A stretch of DNA of 64,000 bases from a virus, in the IMG/VR virus record IMGVR_UViG_3300044729_002678, positions 1 through 64,000 of that record; one strand, 5' to 3'. Below, one piece after another: positions 15,466 to 38,792 of the stretch. The notes under the pieces are model-generated. The model saw only the letters and a program-made list of their open reading frames with translations. It had not been told where the DNA came from and ran no database searches. Position numbers and translations under genes: made by a program. Within the stretch, counting starts at the first letter, position 1. Each line of letters begins with the position of its first letter.

Positions 15466-16377
15466 TTACATTAAAATATTTACAAACATTGCCATTACAT
15501 TTATTTCTTTATCCACAACCAAAGAATCTTTGTATTGTGCTTCCGCAATATTAACTATGGTCACACCAACTTTATTTCCAGCATACTCATCAACCCTTTC
15601 ATACAACATAGAATATAATTTAGTGTAATCCCTTATTCGAGAATCAGCCAATATTTGACGGATTGCATTGAATTTCGTTTTAGTATCAGAACCACTTTTT
15701 AGTATATCTATAATTTTTTCAGCATAGGTCAATTCAATAGTAGATTGTTTATCAATAACTAATTTACCATTTATGATTTGCCTTTGTGCTGAATTTATTA
15801 CCCTGCGAATATCGGGATAACCACTATTAACAATTGGCGCCAAATCCTGCATTTCGAATTGGATACCCTCATTTACTAAAATATCATTCAACCTTTTAGC
15901 AACTTCTTTTTTAGATGGTGGTATAATTTCAAATAATTGACACCTACTTTGAATTGGTGGTAAAATTTTTTCAGGATGATTACAAGTCAATATAAATCTC
16001 GTACTCTTACTGAATGTTTCCATAAGATTACGAAGTGCTGCCTGAGTAAATGATGTTAAGTAATCAGCCTCATCTAATATTACTATTTTCCAAGTTTTAA
16101 ACCCAACCGATGCAGCAAATCCTCTGATTTTATCTCTCAATGTATCAATACCCCTTTCATCGGAAGCATTGATATACATATAATCACAATCAATACCATG
16201 CACTATAATTTTAGCAAGTGTTGTCTTACCTGTTCCAGCAGCACCATGCAATAGTAAGTGCGGAACATCATTATTTTCAATGTATATTTTTATTTTTTCT
16301 AAAATATATTCATTTCCAATATATCCTTCAAGACTCCCCGGTCTAAATTTCTCCACCCACAAACTATTTTCGTTCAT
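15466..16377 (-). CDS. 44: Sliding-clamp loader large subunit, gp44-like AAA+ ATPase
   Basis: A 303-residue RFC/gp44-type AAA+ ATPase. ENSLWVEKFRPGSLEGYIGN at the N-terminus is the RFC-type opening box. LLLHGAAGTGKTTLAKII (~41-58) is Walker A, KIVILDEADYLT (~97-108) is Walker B with the DEAD-like acid pair, TCNHPEKI (~129) is sensor 1, and QSRCQLFEI (~143) is the SRC arginine-finger motif acting in trans. PDIRRVINSAQRQI (~189) is sensor 2. It hydrolyses ATP to open the gp45 clamp and place it on DNA. The length is close to T4 gp44 (319). The start overlaps the 405-residue gene upstream by 4 bp, so subunit synthesis is coupled. Confidence 0.93.
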   Translation of the reverse strand: MNENSLWVEKFRPGSLEGYIGNEYILEKIKIYIENNDVPHLLLHGAAGTGKTTLAKIIVHGIDCDYMYINASDERGIDTLRDKIRGFAASVGFKTWKIVILDEADYLTSFTQAALRNLMETFSKSTRFILTCNHPEKILPPIQSRCQLFEIIPPSKKEVAKRLNDILVNEGIQFEMQDLAPIVNSGYPDIRRVINSAQRQIINGKLVIDKQSTIELTYAEKIIDILKSGSDTKTKFNAIRQILADSRIRDYTKLYSMLYERVDEYAGNKVGVTIVNIAEAQYKDSLVVDKEINVMAMFVNILM

Positions 16378-17592: not shown

Positions 17593-18291
17593 TTACTTCA
17601 CTTCAACTAAATAGTATTCAGATTTATAACCCTCACTCTCAAAAGAACATTGCGCCAAACCAGCAGTTGCAATTTTCATAATTGCTGATTTTGGTGATTT
17701 GTTTGCATTCAAAATTTCTTTCAAATACTTTGCTGAAAATGAAATTGGTTGAATTGAATCCTTACTACACTTACAATCAACTTTAATAGAAATTCTATTT
17801 GAGTTAATTTTAGCATATCCCAAAATGATTTCACCTTTACCACCTTTACATTGGAATGTAAAAGTATCAGATTCGTTCAACGCACTTTTTGATTTAATGA
17901 ACCTATTAATAAATTCATCACTCAAAACAATTTCAGATTCAAACTCAGGAATTTGTTTGATATCAGGCACCGCAGGAATAACCGAAACATCAGCCATCAT
18001 ATAATTCACAGTTGTTGAATTATCGGAAAACTCCAATGCAGCACTTCCAGCAGTTACATTGATGTTAGCATCCAACACACCCAATAGATTTTTTAATTGA
18101 GATGTTGTATATACTCCGAATTCACCATTAGCGAACTCACCATCTTCAGATGTAACTGTCCCAAGTAGGGTTTTATCATCTGAAATGAATTTTACACTCA
18201 TACCATCATCGGTTGATACAAGTTTTACAGATTCAATTTCACCACCAAGATTATAGCGGCTAATGAATCCTTCCAAAGAGATTTTTTTCAT
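17593..18291 (-). CDS. 45: DNA polymerase sliding clamp, gp45-like
   Basis: A 232-residue protein of the PCNA/gp45 clamp type (T4 gp45 is 228). Two similar halves are visible. The first has ISLEGFISRYNLGGEIESVK and strands ending in VYTTSQLKNLLGVLDANINV (~61-80). The second starts near EFESEIVLSDEFINRFIKSK (~118-137) and ends in FSAKYLKEILNANKS and SEYYLVEVK. No enzymatic motif is expected. The clamp trimer would tether gp43 to DNA and, in T4, also activates late transcription. It is the first gene after promoter 18315-18346 and heads the operon with the loader. The start ATG follows an A/T-only leader without a Shine-Dalgarno. Confidence 0.88.
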   Translation of the reverse strand: MKKISLEGFISRYNLGGEIESVKLVSTDDGMSVKFISDDKTLLGTVTSEDGEFANGEFGVYTTSQLKNLLGVLDANINVTAGSAALEFSDNSTTVNYMMADVSVIPAVPDIKQIPEFESEIVLSDEFINRFIKSKSALNESDTFTFQCKGGKGEIILGYAKINSNRISIKVDCKCSKDSIQPISFSAKYLKEILNANKSPKSAIMKIATAGLAQCSFESEGYKSEYYLVEVK

Positions 18292-18314: not shown

Positions 18315-18346
18315 ACAATATACGAATAATTTTCTTAAAATCCAAA
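18315..18346 (-). promoter_or_regulatory. Bacteroidota-type promoter for the clamp operon
   Basis: On the minus strand TTTG (43-46 of 183xx) is followed after exactly 20 bases by TATATTGT (18315-18322). This matches the conserved element seen at eight other sites in the window. The -33 box lies inside the last codons of the polymerase gene. The likely transcription start is about 17 bp before the clamp ATG. Confidence 0.72.
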
Positions 18347-20833
18347 AAATTGTGATGCTTTTTGTAAGTTTTCATTGGGTAAATCCCACTTCATAGCGTT
18401 GTAAAAATCATCTATTTTGTTTTGAAGCGAACCCTCCCAAATAGCATCTAAGTCTGCATGGTCGTTGATAATCTTCTCAATCTCCGGCGGGTCATTCCAT
18501 CCCGTGAAACCAATAGAGTCTAACCCCCATTGATTTTGCTTTAAGTAAACCCATTTAATTTTATCACCGTCTTTCATAGGTTCATATTTGTAAGGGCACT
18601 TAAAGTATTTCAATAGTTGATTATATATAATAGCCGATTTAACATGCGCAGGTGTTCCTTTAGGTGATTTACCCAACGATAATTTACCATTATCGTATTT
18701 ACTCAACTCTTTTACGGCTGAATTCTTTGCTACATCTTTTTTGGGTTGCGTTTCCATATCCCTCTTAAAATCCAATATCTTTTTATCAATATCCGATTTA
18801 TTTACCCCCTTCAATATATCCGAAAGTACCTGTTCCATTACACCCTTAAAATATGTTGGAAAATCAGAGCGTTTAACATCTAACCCCTTCGCATCTATTT
18901 TATCACAGGGGACGGTATTATCATTAATAATCCATTGAGCGTATCTCTTTTTAGCAACCCAAAAACCTGCTTTCGCAATAGTTTCTTGTTTAATATCAAA
19001 TCGGTGTTTATCAATATTAAACAATCTCTTCGCCATTACATCATAGGTTTTATTGATATGTTCTTGTACCTCTTTTGCAACGGATAAAATTGCGGGCACC
19101 ATTTCTTCATCCGATTCTACATTTATGTTTGGATTTCGGTGTTTGACAAGTGGCAAGGCTGAAAAATAGACAGAATCAGTATCAGTATAAATGTTGTAAT
19201 CACCACTACTTCCTATTTGGGATATGTAATATTGATTGGCAATTTTTTCAGTAGTTTTAATTACCGTCTGCCCAGTAATTGTAACCGCTTCTGCGTTTTG
19301 AACATCATAAAATCTGAACGATGGTAAACCCAATACACCATAGAGTGAATTCAACATAATCTTTTGAACAAGTTGGCGTTGGGAATAAAACTTATACAAT
19401 TCTTTGTTTCCCTCCTTACCATACTTTTTCATCAAATCTTTGTATTCAACCCTCTTATCAAACCACACATTAAGAATTTCAGGTATTACACCAACAGATT
19501 CATTTGAGTATATAATTCCATTGGATGAAATAGAATACCCATTTGTTTGTATTAGTTTGTTTAGCTCATCTCTATTCATTTCCGGCAAAGCCTGCCCATC
19601 CTCACAAACAATTTTATATGATTTAATATCATCTTTGATATACGCCTCACTAGTAAATCCGGTTATTGAACCAACCTTTGTTTCTGGGCTGATATTTAAA
19701 CTCATAATAATGGACGGGTATAGGGATGTTAAATCCAAATCATACAACCATTGATACAATCCAGGCATCGGTTCTTTCACATACGCACCCTCAAACTTGC
19801 CCTCGCTCTCTCCACCCTCTCTTTTAGGTCTATTTGGTGCTACCCTACCACTCCTTCTTAAAAAGGTTAATATAGCCCCTTCTAACCACTTAGATGAAAA
19901 AAGAAAATCCTCATAAGGAACATGCCCAGAATGGCATATCGCCCTTGCCAAATCAATGAATTGTAGTTTTGAATCTAAATCTACAACCAATTTAACATCC
20001 TCAATATTGTATTCAATAAATCGTTCTAAATCATCTCGCATCAATTGGTCCAAATTACCACTATAAGTAACTTTACCCCTACCCAACTCTAATTTAGAAA
20101 TAGTATCCAATCTATAATTTGGAAACTCCTGATAAGTGTAGGTTTTATATAACGCTAAATAATCTAAACAGGAAACACCTGCAATTACATATCTTTCTCT
20201 ATTCTTTAAGTAATCAACTTTACCAATAGGTGATATTGAATTTGCAATCTTTTGACCCAATACCTTTTTTGCCCTATTGTAAAAATAAGGTATATCAAAG
20301 AAATCAATATTCCAACCCGTTACAATTGTTGGGTTTATTTCCTGCCATTTTTGGATAAATGCCCACAACAAATCCCTTTCATTGTTAAAGATGTTTACCT
20401 CTGCGCCAGATATGGTTTTAGATGAACTACTCCCACCCAATACATACACAAAGTAATCACCCGTAGCAAAATCATGCGCTGCGATAGATGTTATAGTATT
20501 ATCCGCCATTTGAACATTCGGCAGGCCGGTGTTCATTTCAACCTCAATATCAAAAGTTAATACTACATTGCCCTCTGAAACATCATCGGATGAACCATAC
20601 TCATCAATTAAAATTCGGGTATAATCGTTTACATCGGATTCATATAACTCTAATTTAGTATCTTTTTCCCAATAAGTAATCTTCTTTAATCGTTGGCCAT
20701 GTATAGAAAAATAAGAGCCATTTCCATCAGGTGTGTAGGCGTATCTACTATGCTTTTTAACATAATGCCCCTTAACATCATCCCAAAAGTGAACAACATT
20801 TTCTTCTTTATCATAGTATATGTTTTTATACAT
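18335..20833 (-). CDS. 43: Family B DNA polymerase, gp43-like
   Basis: An 832-residue replicative polymerase (T4 gp43: 898). The 3'-5' exonuclease motifs are FDIEVEMN (Exo I, ~94), GWNIDFFDIPYFYNRA (Exo II, ~171) and YNIEDVKLVVDL (Exo III, ~270). Polymerase motifs are DLTSLYPSIIMSLN (A, ~369), KIMLNSLYGVLG (B, ~494) and YTDTDSVYF (C, ~551), all with intact acidic residues. The C-terminus ends LQKASQFFGF, resembling the clamp-binding tail of T4 gp43. Its ATG overlaps the stop of the glycosyltransferase gene upstream (TAATG), so translation is coupled. A full exonuclease and polymerase are present with no inteins or splits. Confidence 0.96.
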   Translation of the reverse strand: MYKNIYYDKEENVVHFWDDVKGHYVKKHSRYAYTPDGNGSYFSIHGQRLKKITYWEKDTKLELYESDVNDYTRILIDEYGSSDDVSEGNVVLTFDIEVEMNTGLPNVQMADNTITSIAAHDFATGDYFVYVLGGSSSSKTISGAEVNIFNNERDLLWAFIQKWQEINPTIVTGWNIDFFDIPYFYNRAKKVLGQKIANSISPIGKVDYLKNRERYVIAGVSCLDYLALYKTYTYQEFPNYRLDTISKLELGRGKVTYSGNLDQLMRDDLERFIEYNIEDVKLVVDLDSKLQFIDLARAICHSGHVPYEDFLFSSKWLEGAILTFLRRSGRVAPNRPKREGGESEGKFEGAYVKEPMPGLYQWLYDLDLTSLYPSIIMSLNISPETKVGSITGFTSEAYIKDDIKSYKIVCEDGQALPEMNRDELNKLIQTNGYSISSNGIIYSNESVGVIPEILNVWFDKRVEYKDLMKKYGKEGNKELYKFYSQRQLVQKIMLNSLYGVLGLPSFRFYDVQNAEAVTITGQTVIKTTEKIANQYYISQIGSSGDYNIYTDTDSVYFSALPLVKHRNPNINVESDEEMVPAILSVAKEVQEHINKTYDVMAKRLFNIDKHRFDIKQETIAKAGFWVAKKRYAQWIINDNTVPCDKIDAKGLDVKRSDFPTYFKGVMEQVLSDILKGVNKSDIDKKILDFKRDMETQPKKDVAKNSAVKELSKYDNGKLSLGKSPKGTPAHVKSAIIYNQLLKYFKCPYKYEPMKDGDKIKWVYLKQNQWGLDSIGFTGWNDPPEIEKIINDHADLDAIWEGSLQNKIDDFYNAMKWDLPNENLQKASQFFGF

Positions 20834-24734: not shown

Positions 24735-25529
24735 TTACCAAAAAGTGGCCCCAGTTGGTTCATATGCGGTTTCGTGTCGTTCTATTTGGGGTATAAACTC
24801 CTCAGCATTCTTTGGATAATCCCTTATTTGATGCTTTAATTTTGAGTGTAACTCTCTTTTTTCTTTTTTGTTTCCCAAAATTTGAACATACCTATGTTTA
24901 TCGGGTTCTTTCCTCCTCCAAAACTCCGTATAACCCTCCTTACCAATCTCCCTCTTTAAATGGTCTAAGTTATTACTACCCCACTTACTAAACACCGTTC
25001 TACTATGTATCCATGTATATGGGTCTTTTGTTAGGGATATTCCGTAGTTGGGCATTAAAGCAATTTCCGATGATACACCTTGGTAAATCCAATTTGTCGC
25101 CTGATATATCTTACCCAAATGCTCTTGCCCACTATCTGCGTATGATATTAGTAGTTTTATTTCCGTATCATTTTCCTTAAACCATTTAAAAGTCTGTCCC
25201 AATGCATAACTTTCAATATTTGAACCATACCCATCATGCACAAACAATCGGGTCAATTCTAATGCATTATCTTTTGATAATCCCTCACAAATTGAAGTTG
25301 CTGCTTTTGCTCCAACAGGAAATCCGTAAATAGCACAACCAATCAGTTTTTCATTATTACCAAAAACATCCCGTTCATCGCCCATATAAAATATACCAAA
25401 AGCGTATCTGCACATTGTCCACGCGTGGGTGTAATGGTAGGTTACTATCATATCCTTTGCTATTGATTTTGCAATAGGTGCCACTCTAACCCTGGTTACA
25501 TCGCAATATTCTTTACCTTCAATTTTCAT
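24735..25529 (-). CDS. Mom-like DNA-modification acyltransferase, paralogue 1
   Basis: A 264-residue protein resembling phage Mu Mom, a GNAT-fold enzyme that converts adenine in DNA to a carbamoylmethyl form. Landmarks: YHYTHAW (about residues 31-37), FGIFYMGD, LIGCAIYGFPVG (~62-73), LELTRLFVHDGYGSNIESYA (~89-108), LLISYADSGQEHLGKIYQAT (~125-144) and NWIYQG. The ELTRL and SYAD..H.G..YQA.NW segments are the family core. Compared with Mom (~231) it has a longer C-terminal end with RRKEPDKHRY. It is the last gene of the operon from promoter 27500, overlaps its paralogue by 11 bp and is followed at once by module B. Adenine modification in phage DNA to escape restriction is the likely role. Confidence 0.72.
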   Translation of the reverse strand: MKIEGKEYCDVTRVRVAPIAKSIAKDMIVTYHYTHAWTMCRYAFGIFYMGDERDVFGNNEKLIGCAIYGFPVGAKAATSICEGLSKDNALELTRLFVHDGYGSNIESYALGQTFKWFKENDTEIKLLISYADSGQEHLGKIYQATNWIYQGVSSEIALMPNYGISLTKDPYTWIHSRTVFSKWGSNNLDHLKREIGKEGYTEFWRRKEPDKHRYVQILGNKKEKRELHSKLKHQIRDYPKNAEEFIPQIERHETAYEPTGATFW

Positions 25530-26274
25530 TTGGTTCTAATTTGTGTATTTCTTCCAATATAACCTCCCCCACTTTTGGATATGGTTGTAGGGGATGTTTT
25601 ATACTATTCAGTATCTTTTTTCTATTCTTTTTATCCAATATATAAAAATACCTGTGCTTTTTAGGTTCTCTTCGTATCCAAAATGGTTTTGTTATTACTT
25701 TTTGTATTTGTTTTGGGTCATTTGTTCCAAATCGGACAAAAGATGTTCTACTATGAAACCAATCACCATCCTCATCCCACCTAAAACTCCAACTATCAGT
25801 CCACCTTAAATTATTACCTTGATACAACCAATTGGTAGATTGATACACTGTACCTAAATGCCCTTCTTTCGGGTCTGAATACGATATTAAAGCACGAATA
25901 TGTGGTGCGTTTTTTCTCAACCAATCAAATGTTTGTGATACAAACCAACTTTCAATATTACACCCATACCCATCTTCAATCCACAAGCGGGTTAATTCCA
26001 ACACCTCCGTTCTTTGCAAAAGCTCGGATATGGAAGTGCCGGAATTTCTACCCACTGGGTCACCATAACAGGCAACACCCACCAACTTTTCATTAACCCC
26101 ACCGAAAAATTGATGTTCCCCCTCATCTAAATAAAATAATCCAATTGAATAACTAACTTTAGTCCACAAATGACTATAATGGTTTTTTATAATCATCTCC
26201 TTTGCTACGGACTTACTAATCGCCCTTACACAAAATTTGGATGTGTCTGAATAATTTTTACCTTCAATTTTCAT
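25519..26274 (-). CDS. Mom-like DNA-modification acyltransferase, paralogue 2
   Basis: A 251-residue paralogue of the next gene; the two share the opening MKIEGK and nearly all core motifs. Here: NHYSHLW (~31-37), LVGVACYGDPVG (~64), LELTRLWIEDGYGCNIESWF (~92-111), ALISYSDPKEGHLGTVYQST (~128-147), NWLYQG and RREPKKHRYFYIL near the C-terminus. The two copies have diverged widely at the DNA level, so the duplication is not recent. They may modify different sequences or act as a pair. The 4-bp overlap with the gene upstream and 11-bp overlap downstream show tight coupling. Confidence 0.72.
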   Translation of the reverse strand: MKIEGKNYSDTSKFCVRAISKSVAKEMIIKNHYSHLWTKVSYSIGLFYLDEGEHQFFGGVNEKLVGVACYGDPVGRNSGTSISELLQRTEVLELTRLWIEDGYGCNIESWFVSQTFDWLRKNAPHIRALISYSDPKEGHLGTVYQSTNWLYQGNNLRWTDSWSFRWDEDGDWFHSRTSFVRFGTNDPKQIQKVITKPFWIRREPKKHRYFYILDKKNRKKILNSIKHPLQPYPKVGEVILEEIHKLEPNEN

Positions 26275-30799: not shown

Positions 30800-32158
30800 T
30801 TAAAACCCAATATCACCCTTCATATCTTTGTATTTTTGCAATAAATTTTTTCGTACCAAAGTTCCACCCTCTTTCATATCTTTTTGCGTATTTTGACCAT
30901 CTATTGAATTATCATTGTAGATTTCAATTTGCCCATTTGAGAAATTTGCACGAGATGGAAATGTTATACCATCAGGCCCAAATCGGTTTTTAATAACATG
31001 CCACCTACCAGTTCCTGCTAACTTATCATCAATTTTCCTACTCAACGAAACTACAAAATCTGCAGTCATTAATTTAGAAAACGAACCTGCAATTGATGTT
31101 CCCGTAATTATATCTTGATCTGCACCCGACCTGTTAATCTGCGATGCAGTATATAATGGAACACCATACTCACCTGCCATACCCCTTAAATCTATTACCA
31201 ACTCTTCCAAAACCTCATATCTTTTTTCTTTTACAGAACCCCGCAACAAATCAGCATAGTCAACCACAATAATATCAGGTTTTTTACCCTGCAATACCAG
31301 TCTATCAATATGGGCTTTCAAAGCGTTTATTCCCGCAGTTCCAGATGGAAAATCCTTAATTACCAAATCACCTTTCAATGAAGAAATGGTTTTTTCAACC
31401 TCTTCTCTATTGTATTTTAAATTAGGTATAGGTATTCCCGTAAAAACTGCATCAAACCTTTGACCTATCATCGCTTCTGAAAGTTCTAATGTGTAATAAA
31501 CTACCGTCTTTCCCATCTTAACGGCTGCTGCAGCAACATTTACCAATGACCAGGATTTACCAATGCCAGGCGGTGCAGCAAATATTACCAACTCACCAAC
31601 ACCAAAACCACCCTGCGTAATTTCATCTATTACATCCCAACCAGTTGGAACAGGGTTTCTTGCTAAATCTTCATATCTCTCATTTATCATCAATTTGTAT
31701 TCATGCCCAATATCAGTTGGTTGCCCAGCCTTCATAGCAGAATCAATTGTTGATTTTATCTTATCATACTTACCCTGCTCTAAAAGCGGGATTGAATCTA
31801 AAATAGCCTGTTTAAGGGATTGATTGACACAAAAGTTTAAACTCTCTTCTTTTACATAATCTAAGTCATCGGATTCTAACCCCTGCCAAGCACCCTTTAA
31901 TGTATCTATAACCGAACTCTTTAGAATATCTCTCTCAATGCCGTTTATCTTCGTTTTAAGAACATCTAATGTTGGTTTGGATTCGTAGGTATCTATGTAA
32001 TCTAAAATGGTTTTACACAACCACTCAGAGGCTTCTGAGTCAAAGTAGGTGGGTTTTAATATATCAAATATCTGCCTGCTAAATAGCATATCTGATAATA
32101 GAGCAGATAATATTTTTGTTTGAAATCCGGTTCCGAATTTTGTTCCAAATTTTTCCAT
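30800..32158 (-). CDS. Replicative DNA helicase, DnaB/gp41-type
   Basis: A 452-residue RecA-fold hexameric helicase. The N-terminal ~150 residues are helical, as in DnaB. LVIFAAPPGIGKSWSLVNVA (about residues 195-214) is Walker A, VVYYTLELSEAMIGQRF (~228) is H1a with the catalytic Glu, and PDIIVVDYADLLRG (~292) is Walker B. LYTASQINRSGAD (~335) is H3, and TADFVVSLSRK with RFGPDG follow as H4. It moves 5'-3' on the lagging strand. The ATG lies 6 bases after the TATATTAG box of promoter 32165-32195, which suggests a leaderless start. No primase gene is visible in the window, so a separate one is expected outside or is supplied by the host. Confidence 0.93.
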   Translation of the reverse strand: MEKFGTKFGTGFQTKILSALLSDMLFSRQIFDILKPTYFDSEASEWLCKTILDYIDTYESKPTLDVLKTKINGIERDILKSSVIDTLKGAWQGLESDDLDYVKEESLNFCVNQSLKQAILDSIPLLEQGKYDKIKSTIDSAMKAGQPTDIGHEYKLMINERYEDLARNPVPTGWDVIDEITQGGFGVGELVIFAAPPGIGKSWSLVNVAAAAVKMGKTVVYYTLELSEAMIGQRFDAVFTGIPIPNLKYNREEVEKTISSLKGDLVIKDFPSGTAGINALKAHIDRLVLQGKKPDIIVVDYADLLRGSVKEKRYEVLEELVIDLRGMAGEYGVPLYTASQINRSGADQDIITGTSIAGSFSKLMTADFVVSLSRKIDDKLAGTGRWHVIKNRFGPDGITFPSRANFSNGQIEIYNDNSIDGQNTQKDMKEGGTLVRKNLLQKYKDMKGDIGF

Positions 32159-32164
32159 ATGATA

Positions 32165-32195
32165 CTAATATACAACTTTATTTGGTTTTTTCAAA
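32165..32195 (-). promoter_or_regulatory. Bacteroidota-type promoter for the helicase gene
   Basis: TTTG (32192-32195), 19 bases, TATATTAG (32165-32172) on the minus strand. The helicase ATG at 32158 is 6 bases beyond, giving little or no 5' leader. The -33 box lies within the end of the 5' nuclease gene. Confidence 0.72.
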
Positions 32196-33227
32196 GTAAT
32201 TTTTTAGGATATTATCCAATCCCATAAAACTATTCCGTAACCACGAATCTACATTCGCAAAAGCAGTATATAACTTATCATACATAAACATTTTTTTAAA
32301 TTCCAGCAAATTCAATTTAGGCTGGTGATTATCCAATATATTTCTAATATTTGATGTTATAGATGTTGATATATCAGGTGATTTCAATTGCATTAAATCA
32401 TAATTCAATTCTATTGTTTGAATAGAATCTAATAATTTTTTTGATAATTTTTCATCACAATTTTCCTTTATCCCCGCAACAAATCCATTATAATCTAATT
32501 CCACCTCATTCAAAAAATCCATTTTACCTAAAATGGTTTTTGTGCCAATACCATTAACACCTTTAATATTATCAGATGTATCCCCCATTATTACACGATA
32601 CCAAATTAAGTTTTGTGGTATTACACCCCACTCTTCCTTGACAAGGGGTTCATCATACATTACTTTTTTAACGGGCGAATAAACCTTAATTCGTTCATTT
32701 ACCAATTGTAAAAAATCTTTATCGGATGATAATAGTACTACCTCTTTCTTAAAATAATGATTGGCCATCCAAGCCATCAAATCATCTGCTTCCACATAAT
32801 CAACTTGTAGAAGCGTTATGGGTAAGTTTTGTAAATATTCATACAAGCGAACAAACTGCTTTTTCATAGATTGCTGTTGGTCCTCTATATCCTCATATCC
32901 ACTTAATCTATTCAATCGGGTTAATCCCGTTCTACCCCCTTTGTAATCCGCATACACCTTTTTTCTACGATGCGAACCACCCTTACCATCAAACACTATA
33001 ACTACCCTTGATGGATTTAAATTACGAATAGTGGCTGCGGTGGATAACAGGAAACCCGTTATACCACCACAATGCTCACCATCATCATTAAGAGCTGGGA
33101 CTGCTCCAAACACTCTGATAAACATATTAAGTCCATCAATTATCAATACCTTATCATTTAGGTTTTGATTTGTTGTTTGCTGATTTCCCAGCTTACTCAA
33201 TAATTCTTTGTAATTCTTAGTCATCAA
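32178..33227 (-). CDS. 5'-3' exonuclease / RNase H of the FEN family
   Basis: A 349-residue FEN/T4 RNase H-type nuclease. Acidic metal-binding residues sit in VLIIDGLNMFIRVFGA (about residues 27-42), RVVIVFDGKGGSHRRK (~74-89) and VDYVEADDLMAWMANH (~143-158). VLLSSDKDFLQLVNER (~163-178) and MGDTSDNIKGVNGIGTKT (~216-233; the helix-hairpin-helix DNA-binding loop with its Asp pair) complete the set. It removes RNA primers from Okazaki fragments. The start overlaps the UvsX gene by 11 bp. The C-terminus MGLDNILKNYFEKTK may be a clamp or ssDNA-binding-protein contact; that is a guess. Confidence 0.92.
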   Translation of the reverse strand: MMTKNYKELLSKLGNQQTTNQNLNDKVLIIDGLNMFIRVFGAVPALNDDGEHCGGITGFLLSTAATIRNLNPSRVVIVFDGKGGSHRRKKVYADYKGGRTGLTRLNRLSGYEDIEDQQQSMKKQFVRLYEYLQNLPITLLQVDYVEADDLMAWMANHYFKKEVVLLSSDKDFLQLVNERIKVYSPVKKVMYDEPLVKEEWGVIPQNLIWYRVIMGDTSDNIKGVNGIGTKTILGKMDFLNEVELDYNGFVAGIKENCDEKLSKKLLDSIQTIELNYDLMQLKSPDISTSITSNIRNILDNHQPKLNLLEFKKMFMYDKLYTAFANVDSWLRNSFMGLDNILKNYFEKTK

Positions 33228-34350
33228 AATCAGATAATTCTATGTTGTCAGTATTCGCTTCATCAGATGCTTCCTTATAAGAAAGGATATAAGAATCACA
33301 AATTTCGTTGTAGATTTTTTCCTTTATATCAGCACGAGTTTGGAGTAGTTCTGGGAAATTCTTAGCTTGAAACTTTATTTCTTCCCCAGTTTCTTTATCC
33401 GCCCAAGTATACCAAGCACCACTTTGATTTGCAAGTTTATACGCCTTCATCATCTCCAACCACGAACCCAAATTATCAATACCACTATCAAAGAAAATAT
33501 CATAATCTATTGAACGAAGTGGTGGCCCCATTCGGTTTTTAATAACTTGCGCCCGCGTTTTAATACCAACCACCTGGTCAATACCACCAACCTTTGCTTT
33601 CAACTGCCCCATCTGCTTCAAACGAATTCTACAACTTGAATGGAATGCGATTGCTTTACCACCGGATGTGGTCCATGGATCTCCAAAACTTACTCCCATT
33701 CTCGTTCTTAATTGGTTTGTAAAAATAAGAGTAATTCGCTCTCTACCAATTAAGTTGGTAATTTTACGCATTGCCTTTGAAATGATGATTGCTTTTTGAG
33801 TTGCAAATCCGGCCTGGTCATAATCCGCTGATATTTCAACCTTTGTTGATGCACCTGCGACCGAATCCACTACAATAGTAACCAATTTCTTTTTATCGGA
33901 TTTTCTTACCGAATCAATAATTGAATCAATTGCTTCAAAAATATCTTCCACCGTTTCCAATGGAACATACAACATCTTTTTTAGGTCAACACCAATTGCA
34001 TCTAAAAACTCCTGATTAAGTGCGTTTTCAGTATCAATATACACACCTAACCCACCCCTCTTTTGCGTATCCGCAATCGAATGGGCCGCTACCAATGATT
34101 TACCACTACCTTCCAATCCCGTAATCTCCGTAATTCTACCAACAGGCAAACCACCATTTGGGCGATTTGATATAGCCAAATCTAACATTTCAGAGCCAGT
34201 AGACACCCACTCGTCTAAATCGGTGGGTGTCTGCTCTGAGCCGTCTAAATAATAAGCTACTTTGTGTTGTGATTTGAACTTCTTATTAAGATTATCTGCG
34301 AGTATGGTAGATAGTTCATCACGAACTATATCTACTTTTGGTTTACTCAT
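33217..34350 (-). CDS. uvsX: RecA-like recombinase, UvsX-type
   Basis: A 377-residue RecA/UvsX ATPase. ITEITGLEGSGKSLVAAHSI (about residues 68-87) is Walker A. YIDTENALNQEFLDAIGVD (~98) has the conserved Glu, and VTIVVDSVAGAST (~147) is Walker B. LIFTNQLRTRMGVSFGDPWTTSGGKA (cut here: TNQLRTRMG, ~208, then TSGGKAIAFHSS) gives loops L1/L2. The C-terminal ~30 residues are acidic (EASDEANTDNIELSDFDD). It catalyses strand exchange for recombination-dependent replication. It lies 5 bp after the gp32-like gene, which in T4 works with UvsX. Confidence 0.93.
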   Translation of the reverse strand: MSKPKVDIVRDELSTILADNLNKKFKSQHKVAYYLDGSEQTPTDLDEWVSTGSEMLDLAISNRPNGGLPVGRITEITGLEGSGKSLVAAHSIADTQKRGGLGVYIDTENALNQEFLDAIGVDLKKMLYVPLETVEDIFEAIDSIIDSVRKSDKKKLVTIVVDSVAGASTKVEISADYDQAGFATQKAIIISKAMRKITNLIGRERITLIFTNQLRTRMGVSFGDPWTTSGGKAIAFHSSCRIRLKQMGQLKAKVGGIDQVVGIKTRAQVIKNRMGPPLRSIDYDIFFDSGIDNLGSWLEMMKAYKLANQSGAWYTWADKETGEEIKFQAKNFPELLQTRADIKEKIYNEICDSYILSYKEASDEANTDNIELSDFDD

Positions 34351-34355
34351 ATAGA

Positions 34356-35117
34356 TTAATCGTTAAAAAGGTCGTCAAATGCTTCTTTTACTGAACCGGC
34401 TTTGCTTGTGGTTGGTGTAGCTTCTACAACTGCAGGTTGTTCTGATTTTGTTTCTTCTTTCACTTCACCAGTTTCCAACCAAACCTCCAACATTCCCTTC
34501 AACTCATCATAAGTGTATCGCTTGAAGATTGTGCTTAAATCGGCTTGATTTTTTACCAACTGAACAATATTCTTATCCTCAGTCATTGGTGTTGTGTTTG
34601 GTTTTACCCTAATAAATGTTTCAGGATAAGATTTACCCACCTCTGCTGCTGATTTGAACTCTACGGTAATATCTCTACCACTCATAGGGTCAGTCAAATC
34701 ACCATAGTCTGGGTCTGCGAAGAACGCGAGGATTTCTTGGTAAACCTGCTTACCAAATCCCCAAAATTTAACACCCTCCGATTCTTCACCCCTTACCAAA
34801 ATAGGAACATAAGTTCTCATTTTTGGGGTTAGTTTTTTAGAGAGGTTGTAATCTTCCCTATCCTTCGTTGCTTTCAATTGCTCTGAAAATTCTACGATAG
34901 GGTCTTTCTCACCAAATGATACAGGTGATAGAATAGTTTTTCCACCAAAATCAAAGTGAAAATACAATTCAATGAAAGGGTTTTCTTTGTTGTGCACATA
35001 AGGCACTAATCTGATTTGCTGCTTACCTGGATTTGGTTTCCATAAGGTATCAGTCTTTTGAACTTTTGTTTGAAGTGTATTCAAACGATTTCGGATTGCG
35101 TTTAGGTCAATTCCCAT
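34356..35117 (-). CDS. 32: ssDNA-binding protein, gp32-like
   Basis: A 253-residue ssDNA-binding protein. The N-terminus LNAIRNRLNTLQTKVQKTDT is the basic self-association region before the OB fold. WKPNPGKQQIRLVPYVHNKE (about residues 27-46) with FHFDFGGKTILSP starts the core, and GVKFWGFGKQVYQEIL (~117) is a typical gp32 core segment. The tail is an acidic peptide, KEAFDDLFND, for partner contacts. The zinc-binding Cys/His set of T4 gp32 is missing, since I see no Cys in the core. Expression should be high: promoter 35159-35190, a ~40-base leader, then ATGGAGTAATT before the ATG. Confidence 0.88.
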   Translation of the reverse strand: MGIDLNAIRNRLNTLQTKVQKTDTLWKPNPGKQQIRLVPYVHNKENPFIELYFHFDFGGKTILSPVSFGEKDPIVEFSEQLKATKDREDYNLSKKLTPKMRTYVPILVRGEESEGVKFWGFGKQVYQEILAFFADPDYGDLTDPMSGRDITVEFKSAAEVGKSYPETFIRVKPNTTPMTEDKNIVQLVKNQADLSTIFKRYTYDELKGMLEVWLETGEVKEETKSEQPAVVEATPTTSKAGSVKEAFDDLFND

Positions 35118-35215: not shown

Positions 35216-35605
35216 TTATTCCGCAGTTACTACTTTATAAATAGTTGTTTTTAAAAATTTAAAACCTGTATCGTTTGTTAATAAAACTCCATTTTTATAA
35301 TCTTCCCAATTTAATTGGTAATTTTTATCCAAAACACCACCATTTAACTTTTGAATAAGTCTATTTAAGGCGTTTATAGTATATAATGTATTTGTTTCTC
35401 TTTTTCTATGAACCATTATTGTATTTGGTAAAAATTTTGAGGTATGTGTGGGTATGATATTGTAACTAATAACCAATTCATCTGAGTTTTCTAATGTCAA
35501 TACAAATATTTTTTTACTAAATAGTGTGAATCCGGTTTTTATAGCCGACACATCACTATCACATAAATCATCCTTTGTAAAGGTTATTAATAACTGTGTT
35601 TTCAC
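35216..35605 (-). CDS. Hypothetical protein with GTG start
   Basis: A 129-residue protein with a GTG start at 35603-35605, supported by GGAG seven bases upstream; no ATG fits the frame. Mostly strands (QLLITFTKDDL, KKIFVLTLENSDELVISYNI), a helix (TINALNRLIQKLNGGV, about residues 77-92) and a strand-rich end. No recognised family. It lies between the 636-residue gene and the gp32 promoter, at the end of that transcription unit. Function unknown. Confidence 0.65.
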   Translation of the reverse strand: MKTQLLITFTKDDLCDSDVSAIKTGFTLFSKKIFVLTLENSDELVISYNIIPTHTSKFLPNTIMVHRKRETNTLYTINALNRLIQKLNGGVLDKNYQLNWEDYKNGVLLTNDTGFKFLKTTIYKVVTAE

Positions 35606-35619
35606 TCATATCTCCATAA

Positions 35620-37530
35620 TTATTTTGAATATACATCTTTATTAGCAGCTTCAAGTATTTTAGCAAACCTTTTATCCAACTGCATTTCAAATTTTATTAC
35701 ACCACCATAACCAACACCATCTTCACGAATTGCAATTGTAGCCAATGGAATAATTTTACCATCAATATCAGCCTTATACCCCAAATAAGGAGGATTACCA
35801 TCTTGGGCCACTAATTTTTCTTTGATTTGTTTAAAATCAGATGTTCCAAATATTTTTTCCATTATTGTTTTATCCAAAGAGTTTGGGCCAATAGCCATTG
35901 TTTCTTCACCATCAGAAATAGATTTTAGAGGAAACTCATTTTTAATTTCCGCCAACATACCGGCTTTCAGTTTTGGATTTGTAACAATTGCTTTAATAGC
36001 GGCAGATTGATATTTACGATGGGTTTCATCAACATTTTTCATGTATTGTTTTGCCTCTTCATTTCCAGAATCGGCAAGAGCCTTTATACCTTCTAATACA
36101 ACTTTAGCTTTACCACGATTTCCACCACCCTTTTTTAAATCATTTAAAGCATCATCAAATGATATTTTTTTAGATTTTATAGTATCTATTAATGATTTTG
36201 CGGCAGGGTCATTTGAATCAATTAATTTTTTAATATCATTTGAAAATTTCGAACCAAAATTGCTTAGAGCTTTTCTTTGATTTGATGAATACACTTTTTG
36301 ATTAATTTCATCTGGCAAATCAGCATCCCATTCAGTAAATTTACCTGTGCCTGAATTCAAAAAATTAACTAAAGTTGATTTTTTCAACGAAACCTCGTCC
36401 AAAATTTCACTACCATCTTGTAGTCTAATTTTGGCGTACATATCGCTTGAAAATCCTTTATTTTTATTGTAGTTTTTAAGACCAAGTGCTTCCACTTCAT
36501 TTTTAGTATCCCAAGATGTAACCACAATTTCAGCACCAGGATATTGTAAATTAATCCGATTTAGTATTGCCTGTCTATTGTTTTTAGCAGCCTCTATCCA
36601 ACTCTTTGTAACAATTCTACTATTTTCAGCTTTTAAAGTAGGGTTGTTTTTAATCAATGCGGATTCGTGTGCCAAAAGAGATTCGGTTAATTTTGTAAAT
36701 TCTTCGTTTGACATGGATACACCCATCATCGTCATCAATTCTCCGGCTTGAGCAGATATTTGACCAGCTCCTCCAGAAATATCGCTAAAGTGAGACCATT
36801 TTGTAGCATCACCACTAGGACGGGTATTCATCATTCGTTCTAATGCTTTCAAATATCGTTTTGGGAATTTTGGATTAGAGATGAAATCAGTTGGAATCTT
36901 AAAAGCCTCGGGTGGAATTGGGTTTGCTAATTTTACATTTTTCTTTTCAAATTCGGCATCATCAGGAATCATTTCTTGAGTAAAAGCTTTGGATTCTAAT
37001 GAATTTGTTTTTATTAAAGTTTTATCTTTACCCGCTATAATACGCTCTTCGGAGGCAGGTTCACCTTTAGGTTCATCCAAATCATCCGATTGTTTTGATT
37101 TTTGTTTTTCCTTTTCAACATCATCTTCGCTCGCAATATCTTGCGTTTCAGGATTGTGTTTTTTAACGGTATATACTGAACCTGATTTTTTATTCTTAAC
37201 CCAAGTATCTTCCTCCAACCCCATCTTTTTCTTTTTCAGGTATTCTTCTTTTTCAGCAGCGGTCATCATACCAAACTCAATTGCCTCTATATCCTTTTCG
37301 GGATTATCTTCCTCACCATCGGGTTGAGCAGGTAGGGTTGTTGGTGGTTTTGGTGGTGTTCCTTGCTCTGATAATAGAGTATGTAAATACTTACCCACCT
37401 CTTTCCCATATAAATCAGATGCAATCTCAGAAATGTGCCTTATAACTCTTGGCTCATTTATGTTGATAAGGTCAGTTCCTATTTCAACCCATGCTCTATA
37501 TAAAATTTCTTCAATAAAACTATTCTTCAT
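35620..37530 (-). CDS. Large protein with a possible PD-(D/E)XK nuclease-like core
   Basis: A 636-residue protein. Residues ~1-60 are a small helical N-domain. Residues ~55-190 are low-complexity and highly charged, with many Glu, Lys, Pro and Asp, probably disordered. Residues ~200-500 are folded. Inside this, SSDMYAKIRLQDGSEILDEV followed by SLKKST (about residues 359-384) has a strand-turn-strand with D and E-x-x-x-K, suggesting a restriction-endonuclease-like active site. Similar long structural or virion-associated proteins are seen in T4-like phages, but I do not know this one. The ATG lies 3 bases after a TATTTATA element, so no leader is expected if that is its promoter. Confidence 0.6.
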   Translation of the reverse strand: MKNSFIEEILYRAWVEIGTDLININEPRVIRHISEIASDLYGKEVGKYLHTLLSEQGTPPKPPTTLPAQPDGEEDNPEKDIEAIEFGMMTAAEKEEYLKKKKMGLEEDTWVKNKKSGSVYTVKKHNPETQDIASEDDVEKEKQKSKQSDDLDEPKGEPASEERIIAGKDKTLIKTNSLESKAFTQEMIPDDAEFEKKNVKLANPIPPEAFKIPTDFISNPKFPKRYLKALERMMNTRPSGDATKWSHFSDISGGAGQISAQAGELMTMMGVSMSNEEFTKLTESLLAHESALIKNNPTLKAENSRIVTKSWIEAAKNNRQAILNRINLQYPGAEIVVTSWDTKNEVEALGLKNYNKNKGFSSDMYAKIRLQDGSEILDEVSLKKSTLVNFLNSGTGKFTEWDADLPDEINQKVYSSNQRKALSNFGSKFSNDIKKLIDSNDPAAKSLIDTIKSKKISFDDALNDLKKGGGNRGKAKVVLEGIKALADSGNEEAKQYMKNVDETHRKYQSAAIKAIVTNPKLKAGMLAEIKNEFPLKSISDGEETMAIGPNSLDKTIMEKIFGTSDFKQIKEKLVAQDGNPPYLGYKADIDGKIIPLATIAIREDGVGYGGVIKFEMQLDKRFAKILEAANKDVYSK

Positions 37531-37547: not shown

Positions 37548-38756
37548 TTATATACTAAACATATTTTTATAATCATCCCCAACCTCAACCTTTACAGGAT
37601 AACCACCAAACTCCATAATCTCTTTTACCTTTTTGGGGAATGTATCTATTTCATCATCCGATACATCAAATAAGATTGAGTCATAAGTATAAAGTACAGG
37701 TATTGATTTGTATTCTCCCAATTGTTTTGAGAGTTTATCTATAATAAGTATGTTTCTTTCCGTTTCTAATGATTGTAATAAGTAATTAAATAGTTTATTT
37801 TTGTTCATTTCATCGGATTTTCGGATAATTCTCTTAAATATAGGGGTCTTAATCCCAAAATTAAAAGAAAACTCATCCCATAACCTATCAATCATCGCAG
37901 AAACCGAACTATAAAATGGTATATGTTTATACTCATCCTGCACCCCACCATACAACTGCCTAAAAGTTATAGGTTTTGCTTGCTCCATAGGCACTCCATA
38001 TTGTTGACCTAACCAATTGTGAGCGGATATATCAGTTGGTATGGGTTCTCCTATCAACCCGGCAATTAAACGAATGTGGTAGCCATCATAATCAAAACTG
38101 AACAACTTACCATTATCAAATCGAGATACAAATCTACTTCGGGTATCATCACCCTTTTTAAGTGCCGCATAGTTAATGCCATTGAACGCATTAGAAGGAC
38201 GGGATGTGGATGTAAGAAAGTTATACTTCGTATATTCAATACCACTTTTAGTATTTATACCCCACTTTTCTATGTTGTATAAAGAATGCGGATACAATTT
38301 TGAAAATTTATGTGGTGGGTTGTTCCTAATACTATTAAATAATTTTTTCCAATCACCAAACCCCTCATAATGTTTTAATATGGGTATTAAATCACCACTC
38401 TTTGGCACACCCCTCCGTCTGAATATAGGATATATCCCTAATTCATCTACCTCCCAATTCATCCCAAGATGAAACAATTGAGCCTGTAAATCGTATAGGT
38501 TTTTGTGGGTATTGTAGTGATATAAAAATGATTTTAAATCCACCACAAACACCTCATTAAATCTATTCAGGTCTAACTCACCCCCAAATATATCAGCATC
38601 TAAATTTCGGAAATTTATACACACATCCACCTCCCCATCCGAAATAAAAAGGGATGATAATTCCGTTTGAGCAGAGTGTTTGCTCAAAGAACTATATACT
38701 GGATACACCAAAACCCTATCCGAAGATAGGGTACGGGGAATTTCGTTAAAAATCAT
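37548..38756 (-). CDS. Small family-A-like DNA polymerase
   Basis: A 402-residue protein with a degenerate PolA-type palm. TSTSRPSNAFNGINYAALKK (about residues 182-201) parallels the TGRLSS...PNLQN region. LFSFDYDGYHIRLIAGLIGE (~217-236) matches motif A (DYSQIELRVLA). AKPITFRQLYGGVQ (~259-272) matches motif B, retaining Lys, Phe and YG but lacking the leading Arg. VLYTYDSILFDV (~363) replaces the HDE of motif C with YDS. The first ~170 residues are not recognised and may be a worn exonuclease domain. It exists beside the full gp43 replicase and so probably does repair, primer processing or recombination synthesis. The ATG is 4 bases after its promoter box. Confidence 0.68.
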   Translation of the reverse strand: MIFNEIPRTLSSDRVLVYPVYSSLSKHSAQTELSSLFISDGEVDVCINFRNLDADIFGGELDLNRFNEVFVVDLKSFLYHYNTHKNLYDLQAQLFHLGMNWEVDELGIYPIFRRRGVPKSGDLIPILKHYEGFGDWKKLFNSIRNNPPHKFSKLYPHSLYNIEKWGINTKSGIEYTKYNFLTSTSRPSNAFNGINYAALKKGDDTRSRFVSRFDNGKLFSFDYDGYHIRLIAGLIGEPIPTDISAHNWLGQQYGVPMEQAKPITFRQLYGGVQDEYKHIPFYSSVSAMIDRLWDEFSFNFGIKTPIFKRIIRKSDEMNKNKLFNYLLQSLETERNILIIDKLSKQLGEYKSIPVLYTYDSILFDVSDDEIDTFPKKVKEIMEFGGYPVKVEVGDDYKNMFSI

Positions 38757-38760
38757 TTAA

Positions 38761-38792
38761 CTAATATACGAAAGAATAATTAAAATTACAAA
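38761..38792 (-). promoter_or_regulatory. Bacteroidota-type promoter for the PolA-like gene
   Basis: TTTG (38789-38792), 20 bases, TATATTAG (38761-38768) on the minus strand. The ATG at 38756 follows only TTAA, so the mRNA must be leaderless or nearly so. The box overlaps the end of the small gene 38786-38947. Confidence 0.75.

Follow-up and report, generated by a model that had tools for sequence, protein, structure and literature searches.

The window analysed here is the whole stretch of 64,000 nucleotides at positions 1 to 64,000 of IMG/VR record IMGVR_UViG_3300044729_002678, a virus record of 161,618 bases (161.6 kb). On its minus strand an open reading frame occupies exactly 37548–38756, starts with ATG, encodes 402 amino acids and is intact in relatives. 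The product is a divPolA1, a member of a family already published in 2024. The features of the gene and its upstream edge are as follows, with Pol I equivalents given for the active-site residues:

38761–38792, minus strand: Bacteroidota-type promoter, TTTG-N20-TATATTAG, with the −33 TTTG at 38789–38792 and the −7 TATATTAG at 38761–38768
37548–38756, minus strand: divPolA1 gene, thumbless family-A DNA polymerase of 402 aa (reading frame, PHROG_17, AlphaFold, Foldseek, dN/dS)
38713–38732, minus strand: perfect 8-bp hairpin over codons 9–15 with a variable loop; weak, one event
38457–38756, minus strand: exonuclease-like N-terminal domain lacking the catalytic acids, approximately residues 1–100
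38199–38261, minus strand: thumb-loss site, residues 166–186
38190–38207, minus strand: TSRPSN, the TGRLSS equivalent; R186 = R668
38070–38093, minus strand: motif A, DYDGYHIR; D222 = D705, H227 = E710
37947–37988, minus strand: motif B, MEQAKPITFRQLYG; K261 = K758, F265 = F762, Y269 = Y766, M257 at the R754 position
37665–37694, minus strand: motif C, LYTYDSILFD; D359 = D882, Y358 = H881, S360 = E883

The original prediction of a 402-residue PolA-like polymerase held up. The protein matches the PHROG_17 'DNA polymerase' family at 4e-10, and scores 0.006 (16 bits) against Pfam DNA_pol_A (PF00476), below the curated cut-off of 34.3. An AlphaFold model built from an alignment of 60 relatives has a mean pLDDT of 92.6 and a pTM of 0.91. 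Its top Foldseek matches are Klenow, Bst, Taq and Pol theta, with E values down to 3e-15 and TM scores up to 0.74 (query length), and in the viral library it matches phage PolAs. Since the model is confident and the E values this low, the match is not due to chance.

Several other identities for the reading frame were rejected. A chance frame or pseudogene is ruled out by purifying selection (dN/dS 0.10–0.20 between close relatives) and by 99 related reading frames. A frameshifted piece of a larger PolA is ruled out by the lack of a second PF00476 match in the record and by full-length relatives of equal size; no match to any other family-A polymerase was found in the whole 161,618-base record. 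A defence function was set aside because PADLOC gave no match. A host-encoded copy was likewise rejected: only seven matches were found in 84,980 genomes, every one on a contig of a metagenome-assembled genome, and three of these carry Bacteroidota names (Flavobacteriales, Winogradskyella, Flammeovirgaceae). A plasmid search with the C-terminal fragment gave no match.

The paper 'DNA polymerase swapping in Caudoviricetes bacteriophages' (PMC11348598) described the family from 14 phages, the Flavobacterium immuto phages among them. It presents divPolA1 as a second PolA with a truncated thumb, an inactivated exonuclease and the main catalytic residues kept, having replication genes downstream and invariably accompanied by a regular polymerase, which may belong to family A, B or C; neither a steric gate nor an experiment on divPolA1 appears in the available parts (PMC11348598). 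The window protein has every testable feature of the description given there. Two scans of IMG/VR yielded at least 588 and at least 584 confirmed divPolA1 stretches (redundant), so the family extends far beyond the 14 phages of the paper. Outside IMG/VR, divPolA1 was found in the 484-kb phage LR756508, in Microcystis phage Mel-JY01 (408 aa, annotated 'hypothetical') and in the immuto phages. The family forms a clade apart from ordinary PolAs with a support of 1.000.

The closest known counterpart is gp001 of Flavobacterium phage vB_FspM_immuto, which is homologous to the window protein (tblastn 2e-31 over 57% of the query) and is recovered with it by one family HMM, although the two share only about 27% identity over the full length. 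They are of the same size, and both have a truncated thumb and a dead exonuclease, are additional to a regular polymerase and are followed by genes for SSB, UvsX, exonuclease and helicase. The regular partner differs, being PolB in the window phage and a full PolA in immuto. This immuto PolA, gp199 (L020:7899–10232), is full-length at 778 aa and reads HDQ instead of HDE in motif C. The divPolA2 of barbaviruses is also a divergent PolA that lacks a standard thumb and is additional to PolB, but it is described with an unrelated N-terminal globular domain, a variable neighborhood and several paralogues (PMC11348598).

The model retains a confident palm and fingers, with motifs A, B and C in family-A order and both metal-binding aspartates, placing the protein within the family-A polymerase superfamily; the palm fold on which the original prediction depended is thus present. 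The thumb is not. Measured between a conserved IExxG helix and the TSR/TGR element, the segment that should hold it spans 20 residues in the window protein and 20–38 in 63 relatives, against 117–234 in 42 ordinary PolAs. A TM score of 0.74 is more than the palm and fingers, which make up about 258 of the 402 residues, could give by themselves, and we infer from the model that the N-terminal part resembles an exonuclease domain, in agreement with its beta-rich start and with the published description (PMC11348598). The earlier impression that there was no clear exonuclease domain needs correcting, since an exonuclease-like domain appears to be present, but no conserved acidic residue was found at the positions of exo motifs I and II, these being assigned by sequence order, and the 3′–5′ exonuclease is by this measure inactivated. 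Three relatives (L076, L086 and L095, 332–335 aa) lack the exonuclease-like domain even when any frame upstream is examined, and have a TATATT-like element directly before the start; these are natural forms, so the domain is dispensable.

Active-site residues were compared over a main set of 63 non-redundant divPolA1 members (<90% identity) and a contrast set of 42 non-redundant ordinary PolAs from viral contigs, E. coli, T7 and other references. The main set had been found with patterns that themselves hold letters of motifs A and C; a second search on the QxxET motif only gave 42 non-redundant new sequences, in partial overlap with the main set. The equivalents of D705, D882, K758, F762, Y766, R668 and Q849 (D222, D359, K261, F265, Y269, R186 and Q328) are invariant in 63/63, and in the QxxET-only set both metal-binding aspartates and the same Lys, Phe, Tyr, Arg and Gln residues are again found in 42/42. 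The aspartate pair, whose loss in relatives would have spoken against a polymerase, is thus kept throughout. From the invariance of these residues divPolA1 is probably an active nucleotidyltransferase.

The nucleotide pocket around this core is rebuilt. In E. coli Pol I the steric gate against rNTPs is E710, matched by E480 in the T7 enzyme (PMC13228545), and the Taq gate residue is E615 (PMC9738464). At the E710 position, equated with H227 by ungapped motif alignment (D+5) and not by superposed coordinates, all 63 divPolA1 members have His. The R754 position is Tyr in 51 of the 63 and otherwise mainly hydrophobic (M257 here), with Arg never among the residues listed; the H881 position is Tyr in 63/63, and that of E883 is Ser or Ala. 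In the QxxET-only set H227 and YD(S/A) recur in 42/42. Ordinary PolAs have E710, R754 and H881 each in 42/42 and Glu at 883 in 34/42; in 5/42, all thumbed phage PolAs, the last is Ser. The window protein accordingly lacks the Glu gate, motif B Arg, HD(E) motif C and full thumb of a canonical PolA. The motifs had been quoted correctly and in family-A order by the original prediction, which had also noticed the altered first Arg of motif B and the altered His and Glu of motif C; it had missed the change of the motif A Glu to His and the absence of the thumb. What these alignments add is that the nucleotide pocket has been rebuilt in the same way across the family.

Compared with Pol I (Klenow, Bst, Taq), divPolA1 therefore shares the palm and fingers fold, the motif order, both aspartates and K758, F762, Y766, R668 and Q849, and differs in the absence of a thumb, an active 3′–5′ exonuclease and a fused 5′ nuclease, and in E710H, loss of R754, H881Y and E883S. 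T7-type single-subunit RNA polymerase has a related palm, a Ser in motif C (HDS, against YDS in divPolA1) and a gate that is not Glu. However, its gate is Gly where divPolA1 has His, its R627 is kept, and it is an 883-aa protein (divPolA1 has 402) with a large promoter-binding N-terminal domain. Neither the Gly gate nor that domain is found in divPolA1.

Neighbors were counted at 30 loci with at least 7.5 kb downstream of divPolA1. Five genes follow in a fixed order; they are given here together with the regular replication genes of the window:

35216–35605, minus strand: conserved neighbor of 129 aa (30/30 loci; model pLDDT 93.7)
34356–35117, minus strand: single-strand DNA binding protein (SSB), gp32-like (PHROG_1192, 6e-16; 30/30 loci)
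33217–34350, minus strand: UvsX-like recombinase (PHROG_97, 7.7e-69; 29/30 loci)
32178–33227, minus strand: 5′–3′ exonuclease of the Pol I N-terminal type (PF02739, 3e-32; PF01367, 4e-10; 28/30 loci)
30800–32158, minus strand: DnaB-like replicative helicase (PHROG_19, 1e-77; 23/30 loci)
18335–20833, minus strand: family-B replicative DNA polymerase (PolB), gp43-like, 832 aa (PHROG_262, 7e-188)
17593–18291: clamp
15466–16377: clamp loader

Replication genes are thus conserved downstream of divPolA1, with tail genes upstream. Pairwise distances among divPolA1 proteins track those of SSB, UvsX, exonuclease and helicase (Spearman 0.60–0.80; values as high in 0/500 permutations). The model of the 129-aa protein has no structural match, and searches of PDB, Pfam, NCBIfam and PADLOC gave none; lying beside SSB, it could be a helicase loader or a polymerase partner. 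A further minus-strand gene lies between those of divPolA1 and the 129-aa protein (35620–37530); its relatives range from 554 to 989 aa, it was not found in many loci, and its product weakly resembles a family of tail proteins (PHROG_7085, 1.6e-4).

As had been claimed, the phage already has a gp43, with clamp and clamp loader nearby, and divPolA1 is additional to it. PolB was found in 20 of 25 divPolA1-bearing records. The other five are immuto with its full PolA, three fragments of less than 51 kb, and G016 (L088), and PolC was not found as a partner in any of these. In G016, a record of 176,192 bases, no PolA, PolB or PolC was detected, while divPolA1 and a DnaG primase are present; the record may be a fragment, may have an unusual polymerase, or may rely on divPolA1 or the host. 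Besides the window phage, six other large records encode a DnaG-type primase, so priming is provided elsewhere. Two adjacent Mom-family proteins are encoded at 24735–25529 and 25519–26274 on the minus strand (PF25680, 7e-44 and 7e-48), suggesting that the phage DNA may carry adenine hypermodification; immuto encodes a 7-deazaguanine pathway.

The suggestion that the gene has its own promoter also found support. The predicted element, whose last base lies 4 nt before the divPolA1 ATG, fits the −33/−7 consensus of housekeeping promoters in Bacteroidota. Allowing up to one mismatch, it occurs within 80 nt in 27 of 61 non-redundant relatives, against 1.9% of shuffles, and exactly in 8 of the 61, against 0.1%. 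A plain sigma-70 scan gave 11 sites against 9.6 in shuffles, and only the Bacteroidota-type consensus was informative. A message starting here would be almost leaderless. Several minus-strand genes (38761–38768, 35117, 32158, 24129 and 23785) have a TTTG-N19-21-TANNTTTG-like promoter 5–42 nt from their start, in some cases almost at the start codon, which would likewise give near-leaderless messages. The hairpin in codons 9–15 shows one compensatory synonymous change (A-U to G-C), confined to a close clade, and is a possible translational operator; Rfam gave no match in the window.

We tentatively favor, at somewhat under an even chance, divPolA1 as an accessory, distributive polymerase that fills gaps or extends primers alongside the downstream module while PolB replicates the genome. 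With palm, fingers and both aspartates kept, the enzyme should remain able to extend a 3′ end; with the thumb for holding duplex DNA and a working proofreading activity missing, it should act distributively, so that a short gap or a newly made 3′ end would gain a few nucleotides. The divPolA1 gene stands first in a block with SSB, UvsX, 5′–3′ exonuclease and DnaB helicase, and its most likely job would be short-patch synthesis at sites covered by SSB and UvsX. It might fill in once the 5′–3′ exonuclease has removed primers, the tasks of Pol I then being divided among separate proteins, or it might give primers or recombination 3′ ends their first extension and then hand over to clamp-bound PolB. 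Here we infer the activity, distributivity, substrate and partners of divPolA1 alike. Two points count against gap filling: plain gap filling does not call for the replacement of four substrate-pocket residues, which is seen in every member or almost every one, and in T4 RNase H and gp43 suffice for primer removal. Moreover, the presence of divPolA1 in G016, with no other detected polymerase, means that an accessory role may not be universal. The original proposal of a repair, gap-filling or primer polymerase, or else a decayed enzyme, is supported in its first part by the retained palm and aspartates. Decay was its weakest part, since dN/dS of 0.10–0.20 and the family-wide invariance of the altered residues speak for a retooled, conserved enzyme.

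The pocket itself raises the question of a different substrate. With the rNTP gate gone, divPolA1 could use ribonucleotides or tolerate other sugars, and so extend or make RNA or mixed primers; a His at E710 in every member examined, where all 42 ordinary PolAs have Glu, points this way, as does the Ser at E883 that makes a YDS resembling the HDS of T7 RNA polymerase. We nevertheless find this unlikely, because a bulky His may gate by itself where the T7 RNA polymerase has Gly, the F762 equivalent is retained, R754 is lost though T7 RNA polymerase keeps it, Ser at E883 also occurs in thumbed ordinary phage PolAs, and the phages have a DnaG-type primase. It is similarly doubtful that E710 to His, R754 to Tyr, H881 to Tyr and E883 to Ser or Ala, fixed together across the family and combined with thumb loss, let the enzyme polymerise ribonucleotides, modified nucleotides or mixed primers. 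Bypass enzymes typically lack proofreading and have a remodelled pocket, as divPolA1 does, and an open site might tolerate a damaged or hypermodified template, such as the Mom-family pair of the window phage and the 7-deazaguanine pathway of immuto could supply. Lesion bypass or copying of modified bases is nonetheless more improbable than a changed substrate, the neighborhood being one of replication and recombination and not of repair.

A catalytically inert scaffold, or a sensor of nucleotides or DNA, would account for the loss of thumb, exonuclease and the R754, H881 and E710 equivalents, but would not need both aspartates, K758, Y766, R668 and Q849, which stay unchanged across more than 60 divergent members; we rate it improbable, just ahead of bypass. 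Least probable of all is that divPolA1 starts or performs genome replication, leaving the regular polymerase secondary. Its own neighborhood is the conserved replication neighborhood, the regular polymerase is the one that changes family, between A, B and C (PMC11348598), and G016 has no other detected polymerase; yet loss of thumb and proofreading poorly suits the copying of 160 kb, and the clamp and clamp loader genes adjoin the window PolB.

The rebuilt nucleotide pocket makes a clear bench question, and a cultured pair, immuto on Flavobacterium sp. LMO8, makes deletion and biochemistry feasible. If it is active, few family-A enzymes would be smaller than this thumbless polymerase of 330–450 residues, and it could serve as a useful tool. 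The steric gate has been lost uniformly while the rest of the catalytic core is conserved, a natural experiment on sugar choice and DNA holding. Should the substrate indeed be changed, divPolA1 would show a second way in which nature has solved sugar gating in family A, and as a primer-extending enzyme of phages it would resemble no polymerase characterised so far. Two polymerases, one of them reduced to palm and fingers, are kept by many large phages of Bacteroidota type and by a cyanophage.
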